A DNA stretch of 45,502 nucleotides from a gamma proteobacterium HTCC5015 (GTDB taxonomy: Bacteria > Pseudomonadota > Gammaproteobacteria > HTCC5015), in assembly GCA_000155715.1 (NCBI GenBank), contig DS990599.1, positions 1-45,502 of the forward strand. The letters run 5' to 3'. Shown in pieces: positions 13,978 to 17,501 of the stretch. Numbering within the stretch: the stretch's first letter is position 1; each line of letters opens with the position of its first letter. The position numbers and the translations under genes are program-made. A model generated the notes under the pieces. That model saw only the letters and a list, made by a program, of their open reading frames with translations, made no database searches and was not told where the DNA came from.

Positions 13978-15354
13978 ATGAAAATCATCATCCTTGGTGC
14001 CGGCCGCGTCGGCAGCTCAGTAGCCAATATTTTGGCCAGCGAAAATAACGCCATTACGATGGTTGATAAGGATCAGCGGCTGCTCGCCGAGCTGTCCGAC
14101 CAAATGGACATCAAAACCATCGTTGGCCACGCATCACACCCGCGTGTACTGCGCCGCGCCGGCGCCGCAGACGCCGACATGCTGATTGCCGTGACGCAGT
14201 CCGACGAAGTCAACATGGTCGCCTGCCAAGTGGCTTACACACTGTTTCACGTGCCCACCAAAATTGCCCGCGTTCGCTCCGAGCAGTACACCAACAAACA
14301 GGAGCAACTGTTCTCCCAAGACGCGCTCCCCGTCGATGTACTGATCAGCCCCGAACAAATCATGATGAAATATATTCGGCGCCTGATCGAATATCACGGT
14401 GCGCTTCAGGTACTCGATTTTGCGGGCGGGCGGGTGCAGATGGTCGCCGTTCAAGCCGACAGCGGCAGCCCACTCGTGGGCCAACCGCTGCGTGCACTCA
14501 AGGCCCACATGCCCGATACCGATGTGCGCGTGGTCGCCATTTACCGGCAGGGCACCGCGATTTTCCCCCATGGCGACACCATCATTCAATCGGGTGACGA
14601 CGTGTTTTTTCTCAGCGCCACGCAAAACGTACGCCGCGTCATGAAAGAACTGCGCCAAGCGGACAAAGCCGTCAAACGCGTGATGCTAGCGGGTGGTGGC
14701 AACATTGGTCGCTTGCTGGCCAAAAAGCTCGAGGCCAAATACCAAGTCAAAGTGATCGAGCACAACCGCAGTAAGGTGCGAACCATTACCGAGAGCCTCT
14801 CCAAAGGCCTAGTGCTGGAGGGTGACGCCGCCGATGAAGACTTACTCAAGGAAGAAAACATCGATGCCATGGACGTGTTCTGTGCGCTAACCAACGACGA
14901 TGAGGCCAACATACTGTCCGCCATGCTGGCCAAGCGCATGGGTTGTAGTCGCGTCATGTCGATCATCAACCGCTCCGCCTACGTCGACCTCGTCGAGTCG
15001 GAGGTTATCGATATTGCCATCTCGCCACGACAAGTGACCATCGGCACACTGCTCGCCCATGTGCGCCGCGGCGATGTCGTCGCTGTGCATTCACTGCGCC
15101 GCGGTGCTGCGGAAGCCATTGAAGCCGTTGCCCACGGCGACGAGCGCACCTCCAAAGTCGTCGGCCGCCGATTGAAAGATTTGAAACTGCCCGAGGGCAC
15201 CACCATCGGCGCCGTGGTGCGAGGCGAATCCGTCATGATGTTTAGTGGCGATATCGAAATTCAGCCCGACGACCACGTCATCCTATTTCTCGCCGACAAG
15301 CGCAAACTGCCCGAAGTCGAACGCCTGTTCGCTGTCAGTGTGGGATTCATCTAG
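13978..15354 (+). CDS. trkA: Trk potassium uptake regulatory protein TrkA
   Basis: Cytoplasmic NAD-binding subunit gating the TrkH potassium channel. The 458-residue product has two RCK halves, each with a Rossmann nucleotide-binding motif (LGAGRVGSSVA at 6-16, AGGGNIGRLLA near 239-249) followed by RCK_C segments. It shares its last base with the trkH GTG start (CTAGTG), so trkA-trkH are tightly coupled. The 52-base gap after rsmB has no terminator, so transcription from the def operon may run through. Confidence 0.96.
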   Translation: MKIIILGAGRVGSSVANILASENNAITMVDKDQRLLAELSDQMDIKTIVGHASHPRVLRRAGAADADMLIAVTQSDEVNMVACQVAYTLFHVPTKIARVRSEQYTNKQEQLFSQDALPVDVLISPEQIMMKYIRRLIEYHGALQVLDFAGGRVQMVAVQADSGSPLVGQPLRALKAHMPDTDVRVVAIYRQGTAIFPHGDTIIQSGDDVFFLSATQNVRRVMKELRQADKAVKRVMLAGGGNIGRLLAKKLEAKYQVKVIEHNRSKVRTITESLSKGLVLEGDAADEDLLKEENIDAMDVFCALTNDDEANILSAMLAKRMGCSRVMSIINRSAYVDLVESEVIDIAISPRQVTIGTLLAHVRRGDVVAVHSLRRGAAEAIEAVAHGDERTSKVVGRRLKDLKLPEGTTIGAVVRGESVMMFSGDIEIQPDDHVILFLADKRKLPEVERLFAVSVGFI

Positions 15355-16805
15355 TGCAAATCAAAGTCATTCAGCGGATTCTCGGCTTGCTGCTGGTGCT
15401 GTTCAGTACCACCCAGCTGCCGCCTCTGGCGATCTCTCTTTTTACGGGTGACGGCGCCCACTGGGCTTTTGTCGGCGCCTTTGCCATCACCTTGTGCACG
15501 GGTATTGTCCTGTGGTTTCCCGTGCAGCGCGTACGCAGCGAGCTGCGTCTGCGCGAGGGTTTTCTCGTCGTCGTCCTATTTTGGAGCGTTCTCAGTGCCT
15601 TCGCCTCGCTGCCACTGCTCATTTCCGAACAACCACAGATGGATGCCGCCGACGCGTTTTTCGAGGCGGTATCGGGTCTAACCACGACGGGCTCTACCGT
15701 TATCGTCGGTCTGGATGCTCTGCCTCCCTCCATCCTGTTCTATCGGCAGGAACTGCAGTGGCTCGGTGGCATGGGTATCATTGTGCTGGCCGTAGCGATT
15801 CTCCCCATGTTGGGCATTGGCGGTATGCAGCTTTATCGGGCCGAAGCGCCCGGCCCCGTCAAAGACAGCAAGCTCACACCGCGCATCAACGAAACCGCCA
15901 AAGCGCTTTGGTATATCTACTTCAGCCTCACTGTGCTGTGTGCCTCGGCCTATTGGCTGGCGGGCATGTCGCCTTTCGATGCCATTTTGCACAGTTTCTC
16001 TACCATCGCCACAGCGGGCATGTCGCCCCACGACGCCAGCATTGGCTACTTTAATAACGCCGCGATCGAGTGGGTTTGCATCGTTTTTATGGTGCTCGGT
16101 GCCGTCAATTTCTCGCTGCACTTTATGGCGGCCAATCGCTCGAGCTTTGCCCCCTATATTCGCGATGAAGAATTTAAGGTGTTCTTAATCGTTTTACTGA
16201 TTAGCACTCTACTCATTTTAGCGGGGTTGTTGGCCACCGAAACGGCAACCAATGCCGAGCTAGGCTTGCGACATGCGGCCTTTCAGGTGGTGTCCGCTAT
16301 GACAACAACGGGCTTCACGACGACCAGCTTTGCCAGCTGGCCCAGCTTCCTCCCCGTTCTTTTGATTTTTATCAGTTTTATAGGTGGCTGTGCGGGCTCT
16401 ACCGCAGGGGGCATGAAGGTCATCCGTTTTTTGCTGCTCTCGAAACAAGGTTCGCGCGAGCTCGAACGATTAATTCATCCCCGCGCCCATCTCACGATTA
16501 AGCTAGGCGGCCATAAATTGCCTGAGAAAGTCATCGAAGCCGTGTGGGGGTTTTTCGCGACCTATGTGGCCGTCTTCGCCCTCATTATGCTGTTACTTAT
16601 GGCGACGGGCCTCGATCAAGTAACGGCCTTTTCCGCCGTTGCCGCCACACTCAACAACCTAGGCCCCGGCCTCGGTGAGGTTGCCAGCCACTTTGGCGAT
16701 GTGTCCGATACCGCCAAATGGCTATTGAGTATTGCCATGGTCTTGGGCCGCTTAGAGATTTTTACTTTTTTAGTGCTACTGACACCAGCCTTCTGGCGCC
16801 GCTAA
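15354..16805 (+). CDS. trkH: Trk potassium transporter membrane subunit TrkH
   Basis: Inner-membrane potassium-conducting subunit. The 483-residue product is hydrophobic throughout with the four selectivity-filter-like loops of the superfamily (VSGLTTTGSTV, FSTIATAGMSP, VSAMTTTGFTT, VAATLNNLGPGLG). The first loop is followed by LGGMGIIVLAVAILPMLGIGG, typical of TrkH/KtrB. Start is GTG 15354. No + strand terminator is visible after it; the hairpin at 16837-16857 has its T run on the other strand. Confidence 0.96.
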   Translation: MQIKVIQRILGLLLVLFSTTQLPPLAISLFTGDGAHWAFVGAFAITLCTGIVLWFPVQRVRSELRLREGFLVVVLFWSVLSAFASLPLLISEQPQMDAADAFFEAVSGLTTTGSTVIVGLDALPPSILFYRQELQWLGGMGIIVLAVAILPMLGIGGMQLYRAEAPGPVKDSKLTPRINETAKALWYIYFSLTVLCASAYWLAGMSPFDAILHSFSTIATAGMSPHDASIGYFNNAAIEWVCIVFMVLGAVNFSLHFMAANRSSFAPYIRDEEFKVFLIVLLISTLLILAGLLATETATNAELGLRHAAFQVVSAMTTTGFTTTSFASWPSFLPVLLIFISFIGGCAGSTAGGMKVIRFLLLSKQGSRELERLIHPRAHLTIKLGGHKLPEKVIEAVWGFFATYVAVFALIMLLLMATGLDQVTAFSAVAATLNNLGPGLGEVASHFGDVSDTAKWLLSIAMVLGRLEIFTFLVLLTPAFWRR

Positions 16806-16828
16806 CCGAATCGCAAAAATGCGCAGAC

Positions 16829-16857
16829 AAAAAAAACCCGCGGTGGTGAAGCGCGGG
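16829..16857 (-). terminator. Intrinsic terminator of the small RNA
   Basis: Read on the minus strand, CCCGCG and CGCGGG flank a 9-base loop and are followed by eight T residues (A run at 16829-16836 of the given strand). There is no T run on the plus side, so it does not terminate trkH. It implies a minus-strand transcript from the gap. Confidence 0.88.
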
Positions 16858-16994
16858 CCAAGTCCATTTTACTTTCAGGTGATGTGTTACAGTGATCGAT
16901 CCATGAAGTCCTTTACGGCCCAAGTCCTTTTGGGCAATAGAGGGGTTCCTTCCCTCGTCATCCGTGTTCAATCCCTGTTCCGTTGTGTGTATTC
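16829..16994 (-). ncRNA. Putative CsrB/RsmZ-class regulatory RNA
   Basis: A roughly 166-nt minus-strand transcript is predicted between trkH and dtd. The sequence shows nine GGA motifs (complement TCC at 16863, 16900, 16909, 16925, 16947, 16951, 16961, 16972, 16979). Two are in hairpin loops: 16940-16956, stem GAGGG/CCCTC with loop AAGGAAC, and 16918-16935, stem GCCCAA/TTGGGC with loop AAGGAC. The 3' end is an intrinsic terminator. An 18-bp GacA/UvrY-like palindrome lies upstream at 17040-17057. Repeated loop GGAs that sequester CsrA/RsmA, with a GacA box upstream, are the hallmarks of CsrB/RsmY/RsmZ RNAs. Primary sequence is poorly conserved in this class, so the call rests on architecture. 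The 5' end is an estimate. No protein-coding alternative of any quality exists here. Confidence 0.78.
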
Positions 16995-16999
16995 TCTCG

Positions 17000-17057
17000 A
17001 TTTAACGAACATAAAGTAAGTGGATAATTTCCCTACCCCTGTAGGAAATTTCCTACA
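17000..17057 (-). promoter_or_regulatory. GacA/UvrY-type palindrome and promoter of the small RNA
   Basis: TGTAGGAAATTTCCTACA at 17040-17057 is a perfect 18-bp palindrome, one base per half-site from the known GacA upstream activating sequence TGTAAG-N6-CTTACA. On the minus strand a weak promoter follows: TTATCC (17027-17022), 16-base spacer, TTAAAT (17005-17000). That places the palindrome centre about 55 bases upstream of the estimated start near 16994. A poor -35 suits an activator-dependent promoter. Confidence 0.7.
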
Positions 17058-17063
17058 CAGACG

Positions 17064-17501
17064 ATGATTGCCTTAATTCAACGAGTACAACACGCCCGCG
17101 TTACCGTTGACGACCGCACGGTCGGCGAAATCGGCCCTGGTCTACTCGCCCTAGTGGGCGTGGAAAAGGGAGACAACAGCGAGAGCTGTGCCAAACTCAG
17201 CCACAAACTCTTGCACTATCGCGTTTTTAACGACGAGCAGGGCAAAATGAACCTCAATCTGGCACAGGTTGACGGCGAACTCCTGCTCGTCTCGCAGTTC
17301 ACCTTGGCCGCGGACACTCGCAAAGGCCTTCGACCGAGCTTTAGCTCCGCCGCCCCGCCCAACGAGGGTCGACTCTACTTCGACCAACTACTAGAGCAGT
17401 TGCGGGACGCTGGCGCGCGAGTAAAAACGGGAGAGTTTGGCGCCGACATGCAAGTGCACCTCCAAAACGACGGCCCTGTTACATTTTGGCTCAAAGCCTG
17501 A
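17064..17501 (+). CDS. dtd: D-aminoacyl-tRNA deacylase
   Basis: Hydrolyses D-aminoacyl-tRNAs, preventing D-amino acids entering proteins. The 145-residue product has the family's usual length, with [15 protein letters not shown] at the N-terminus, the [17 protein letters not shown] segment near 79-95 and the C-terminal GPVTFWL motif. ATG at 17064 is supported by alignment to the Dtd N-terminus but has no clear ribosome-binding site and lies only six bases after the 18-bp palindrome, so expression of dtd may be affected by whatever binds there. Confidence 0.95.

Follow-up and report, generated by a model that had tools for sequence, protein, structure and literature searches.

A predicted CsrA-sequestering small RNA beside dtd in gamma proteobacterium HTCC5015 and its counterparts in other Gammaproteobacteria

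The genome of gamma proteobacterium HTCC5015 leaves a gap between trkH (15354–16805, plus strand) and dtd, which encodes a D-aminoacyl-tRNA deacylase (17064–17501, plus strand); coordinates refer to the window, the 45,502-nt stretch of contig DS990599.1 that was analyzed. An initial annotation had read the minus strand of this gap as a small RNA of the CsrB/RsmZ kind, which raises the question of whether the gap does encode an RNA that sequesters CsrA and whether relatives keep such an RNA in the same place. Our analysis indicates that the stretch very probably encodes a CsrA-sequestering small RNA, and that this RNA belongs to a family kept beside dtd or pip-dtd in many gammaproteobacteria, distantly related ones among them.

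Anatomy of the trkH–dtd gap

The sequence elements on which the initial annotation was built are all present. The predicted RNA occupies about 154 nt of the minus strand (16829–16982), divergent from dtd. It ends in an intrinsic terminator (16829–16857, minus strand), which is seen on the plus strand as eight As (16829–16836) following a CCCGCG...CGCGGG stem and therefore reads as eight Ts on the minus strand; the predicted RNA gene is intergenic with a Rho-independent terminator, as is characteristic of Csr sponges. It contains nine GGA motifs, two of which lie in the loops of the minus-strand hairpins GAGGG-AAGGAAC-CCCTC (16940–16956) and GCCCAA-AAGGAC-TTGGGC (16918–16935). Both loops are presumed CsrA sites, and multiple (A)NGGA motifs, several of them in loops, are a mark of the class. 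Further along the same strand lies the sequence AUCACCU (16877–16883), a conserved 3′ element common to the dtd-linked RNAs, which together with a GGA segment and the terminator makes up a 3′ module (16831–16886, minus strand).

Upstream of the RNA, at 17040–17057, is the perfect 18-bp palindrome TGTAGGAAATTTCCTACA, which reads identically on either strand and is the presumed activator site. It is the sole perfect match to TGTARGN6CYTACA in the 2.6-Mb genome, and 100 shuffles yielded no match to it at three or fewer mismatches. An upstream 18-bp inverted repeat of the GacA/UvrY type is a further mark of the class; relative to the E. coli UvrY/GacA consensus TGTAAGN6CTTACA, as given in passages of PMC4682653 and PMC8523701, TGTAGGAAATTTCCTACA carries an A to G change at position 5 of both halves, and a TGTAGG half has been taken as a GacA box in Marinomonas according to a passage of the latter paper (PMC8523701). 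A simple scan detected no sigma-70-like promoter at the locus. By-eye comparison with promoters of relatives points to a putative −10 region, GAGAATAC (16989–16996, minus strand), the end of which lies 68–69 nt from where the box begins. Several relatives have −10-like sequences at like spacing from the box, from which we infer a start of the RNA near 16982.

How unusual this composition is depends on the null model. In the 154 nt from 16982 to 16829 on the minus strand, mononucleotide shuffling gives a mean of 2.8 GGA motifs and never reaches nine (0/5000), and dinucleotide shuffling gives a mean of 5.7 and reaches nine in 144 of 5000 shuffles. With both strands of the 45.5-kb window considered, seven or more GGA motifs per 154 nt occur at this locus only. 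The two loop GGAs compare with 0.8 expected, which is not significant for this RNA alone (P about 0.2), and the AAGGAC hairpin is the only one retained as a loop in the global minimum-free-energy fold. Single-sequence folding of the whole RNA is slightly better than that of shuffles (z −1.2). The last GGA, before the terminator, sits in a weak hairpin and is poorly presented compared with that of relatives. Because the fold of the lone sequence is unimpressive and chance could account for its two loop GGAs, it is the relatives that decide the case.

Recurrence beside dtd and the conserved 3′ module

Of the 369 genomes of the class, at least 22, spread over 15 families, combine a GacA box, GGA hairpins, and a terminator in an arrangement that diverges from dtd or pip-dtd; this count includes two genomes with TGTARG boxes (G043 and G046) as well as covariance-model matches. 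The initial annotation had proposed conservation in relatives as a check, and the relatives support its reading. Within one family (f1), for example, the three features are found beside pip-dtd in G001 and beside trkH-dtd in G003. Beyond the 22 or more genomes, three loci from a named collection show the same arrangement (L068, L103, and L113), the last of which is from Ectothiorhodospira mobilis, has a predicted RNA of about 180 nt, and is identical in sequence to G323. In these loci the gene from which the RNA diverges is either dtd itself or pip followed by dtd, and the neighbor on the opposite side, where it can be identified, is trkH or typA. When the 369 genomes were searched and the positions of boxes and dtd were joined by hand, both positions were listed for 35 genomes; in 15 of these the box is within 2 kb upstream of dtd, compared with 0.06 expected (binomial tail 1.7e-32). 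A box close to dtd in G028 was left out of the family, since only two GGA motifs occur on its terminator strand.

The loop GGAs, within chance for the window's RNA alone, are far above it in the family: 20 RNAs together have 57 GGAs in loops closed by stems of at least 4 bp, versus 13.7 ± 3.4 in dinucleotide shuffles, with a maximum of 27. In four loci (L159 from G289, L103, L113, and L164) the terminator loop itself holds a GGA, and the terminator might thus serve as a CsrA site in addition.

These comparisons bear on the possibility that the palindrome is an operator over the start of dtd, or of pip in relatives, and the GGA-rich segment a mere spacer. The box does stop 6 nt short of the dtd start codon, a position from which a bound regulator would affect dtd, and boxes are found upstream of pip or dtd in other genomes. 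In all well-formed members, however, the box goes together with a GGA-rich strand that ends in a terminator and points away from dtd; −10-like sequences recur at similar spacing, and the 3′ module is itself conserved at the locus. A spacer would not be expected to keep any of these, and we consider the operator reading improbable.

The 3′ module is the most distinctive part of the family. AUCACC occurs 49–67 nt from the end of 14 of the 20 RNAs and UUCACCU in three more; neither is present in the remaining members L025, L156, and L162. As DNA, ATCACC ranks first among 6-mers of the 3′ zone (13 of 20 RNAs), where no 6-mer exceeded five in 300 shuffles. In most members a short hairpin whose loop contains GGA comes after AUCACC, with variants that include GCC-AGGA-GGC and stems of GUC/GAC and ACC/GGU. 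In an alignment of eight rows, two of the three pairs of this pre-terminator hairpin show compensatory changes in both partners; 28 of 500 shuffles reach the same covariation value, which with so few rows amounts to modest support. The window's RNA has the family features throughout, namely dtd as neighbor, divergent orientation, and AUCACC(U) followed by a GGA hairpin and a terminator, the pre-terminator hairpin being weak.

R1, a covariance model 57 positions long that represents the 3′ module, was run on the 369 genomes at E ≤ 0.01 and gave 18 matches, one per genome, of which 17 are at dtd, pip, or typA-pip. Six matches at the dtd/pip locus come from outside the training alignment (G183, G186, G289, G292, G293, and G347), and in two of these genomes, G183 and G293, there is no box within one mismatch. 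The window's RNA scores 39.1 bits and is the sole match in its genome; its sequence is part of the training alignment. The eighteenth match, in G354, was not counted, as its locus contains no box, dtd, or pip.

AUCACCU is identical to seven nucleotides of the anti-Shine–Dalgarno tail of 16S rRNA, which suggests a pairing role as one option. The element is found at the same place in 13 relatives, and some members lengthen the match to the 16S tail to UCACCUCC. It is conceivable on this basis that the minus-strand RNA acts mainly by base pairing of AUCACCU with AGGUGAU ribosome-binding sites and that its GGAs are incidental, and indeed no sequence of the family is more conserved than AUCACC(U). 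This is less probable still than an operator, given that loop GGAs are so far above chance across the family and that a GacA box is described in passages of PMC8523701 and PMC4682653 as a signature of Csr/Rsm sponge genes. Least credible is a small protein with the GGAs as glycine codons or ribosome-binding sites: reading frames exist on both strands (69 aa, 16762–16971, minus; 66 aa, 16819–17019, plus), but they have no Pfam match above cut-off, the minus-strand frame runs through the terminator into trkH, and relatives conserve the RNA motifs with variable lengths.

A CsrA-sequestering RNA could also carry AUCACC(U) for another purpose. In E. coli, CsrB decay begins immediately ahead of the terminator, where CsrA sites guard an unstructured RNase E site (PMC5027483), and by analogy one possibility is that AUCACC(U) might be a comparable decay element. 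We tentatively suggest that the dtd-linked RNAs are one ancient orthologous lineage of Csr RNAs in the Gammaproteobacteria and that AUCACC(U) functions beyond CsrA titration, as a decay switch or in anti-Shine–Dalgarno-like pairing with ribosome-binding sites; the two parts taken together are possible rather than probable.

Regulators, proposed mechanism, and other candidate sponges

The host genome encodes the partners expected of a Csr sponge. It has one CsrA, which scores above the cut-off of the CsrA equivalog model, and, with uvrC and pgsA directly downstream of it, a GacA-like regulator for which the best model is UvrY/SirA/GacA (208.8 bits, below the cut-off of 280). A BarA-like kinase matches over nearly its full length (465 bits, below the cut-off of 890), so that both members of the GacS/GacA-type pair are sub-cut-off.

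A mechanism is proposed where the BarA/GacS-type kinase drives phosphorylation of the GacA protein (UvrY/SirA family), which would then bind the palindrome at 17040–17057 and activate the promoter. Transcription would start near 16982 and stop at the terminator at 16829, to give an RNA of about 154 nt. Several A-N-GGA sites, at least two of them in hairpin loops, would bind CsrA dimers and draw CsrA off mRNAs, and CsrA-repressed genes would be relieved for as long as the Gac signal is on. The same role is envisaged for the family of RNAs beside dtd or pip-dtd, most of which end in AUCACC(U), a GGA hairpin, and a terminator.

Boxes with one mismatch occur at chance level in the genome (13 versus 11 in a control). 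Twelve of the 13 were dropped because no terminator-associated GGA cluster was obvious nearby. The thirteenth belongs to a second candidate Csr/Rsm RNA flanked by lysS and a small HTH gene (G000:C30:401100–401315, plus strand; L188, L189), where the one-mismatch GacA box TGTCAGAAAATTCCTACA is followed by a terminator-ended RNA that contains two GGA hairpins, GGCAC-AGGAA-GTGCC and TAGA-TGGA-TCTA. The sequence folds better than 200 of 200 shuffles (z −3.7), and it is a candidate only, since one-mismatch boxes occur at the chance rate. The initial annotation had called the dtd-linked RNA the Rsm/Csr sponge of the species. A sponge design that recurs at this locus in 15 families, in a genome encoding CsrA and GacA- and BarA-like proteins, supports the proposed function; the definite article is less secure, because the dtd-linked RNA may be one of two sponges in its species, the lysS-linked candidate being the weaker.

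Similar loci were noted in other genomes. A second box in G001 (L131/L190, G001:C3:188912) adjoins a topoisomerase gene of the gyrB/parE type and comes with 13 GGA motifs per 300 nt; this is apparently another Csr RNA. In family f158, two loci (L166 in G364 and L167 in G160) have a box, 10–11 GGA motifs, and a terminator, and dtd is not near in the stretch examined; this is a different Csr RNA locus. Box-led, GGA-rich, terminator-ended RNAs were also found at L137 (G051:C22:19446) and L135 (G046:C18:43513), both in genomes that carry a dtd-linked RNA as well, which suggests two or more sponges per genome.

Relation to known Csr and Rsm RNAs

The Rfam search proposed in the initial annotation gave no match. 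At the window's locus, neither gathering scores nor E values up to 10 produced a hit to CsrB, PrrB_RsmZ, RsmX, RsmY, or CsrC, and no Csr/Rsm family of Rfam 15 matched the window or ten loci around dtd-linked boxes. The CsrB model (RF00018) found nothing in 55 genomes and did detect the E. coli control; the PrrB_RsmZ model (RF00166) had no match in the HTCC5015 genome and gave nothing above its cut-off among 55 relatives. The description of this RNA as CsrB/RsmZ-like consequently holds for its design of box, GGA hairpins, and terminator and is a statement of design only, as the Rfam CsrB and PrrB_RsmZ models miss it.

In that design the RNA resembles RsmZ/PrrB (RF00166), RsmY, and RsmX of Pseudomonas, with which it shares size class, an upstream GacA box, loop GGAs, and an intrinsic terminator; its nine GGA motifs are similar in number to the 6–10 published for Rsm RNAs of P. 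brassicacearum (PMC7911923). It differs from these RNAs in its AUCACCU 3′ element, and from RsmZ in its location at dtd, whereas rsmZ adjoins rpoS (PMC7911923). E. coli CsrB and CsrC (RF00018, RF00084) likewise have an upstream inverted repeat of the UvrY type (PMC4682653), GGA hairpins, and, as presumed here, CsrA sequestration, although CsrB has 22 GGA motifs and a box near −180 (PMC5027483, PMC4682653), compared with nine here and a distance of about 65 nt to the upstream box. Closest in the manner of discovery are the CsrB/CsrC homologues of Marinomonas mediterranea and Pf1–Pf3 of Pseudoalteromonas fuliginea, which, according to excerpts of PMC8523701 and PMC11882849, were also found bioinformatically from GGA density together with a GacA box or promoter and a terminator, and were published with experimental follow-up. 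The available excerpts of those two papers do not refer to any locus at dtd, trkH, or pip.

The initial annotation did not know the locus as a home of this class, and our literature searches found no paper that ties such an RNA to dtd or pip; a listing in a 2006 NAR prediction paper (10.1093/nar/gkl439) is possible. A BLAST search of the stretch against plasmids returned trkH only. The functional class itself is known from CsrB and RsmX/Y/Z, and the new part is apparently the conserved dtd locus and the 3′ signature.

CsrA sponge RNAs control switches in metabolism, motility, biofilm formation, and virulence. Low conservation of both sequence and copy number makes their genes difficult to identify, as stated in a passage of PMC8523701. 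A home beside dtd or pip, a unique upstream box, and the 3′ signature together provide a way to find Csr RNAs where Rfam sees nothing, and many of the lineages opened up in this manner are uncultured. The common locus also allows one to ask whether the dtd-linked RNAs descend from one ancestral gene.
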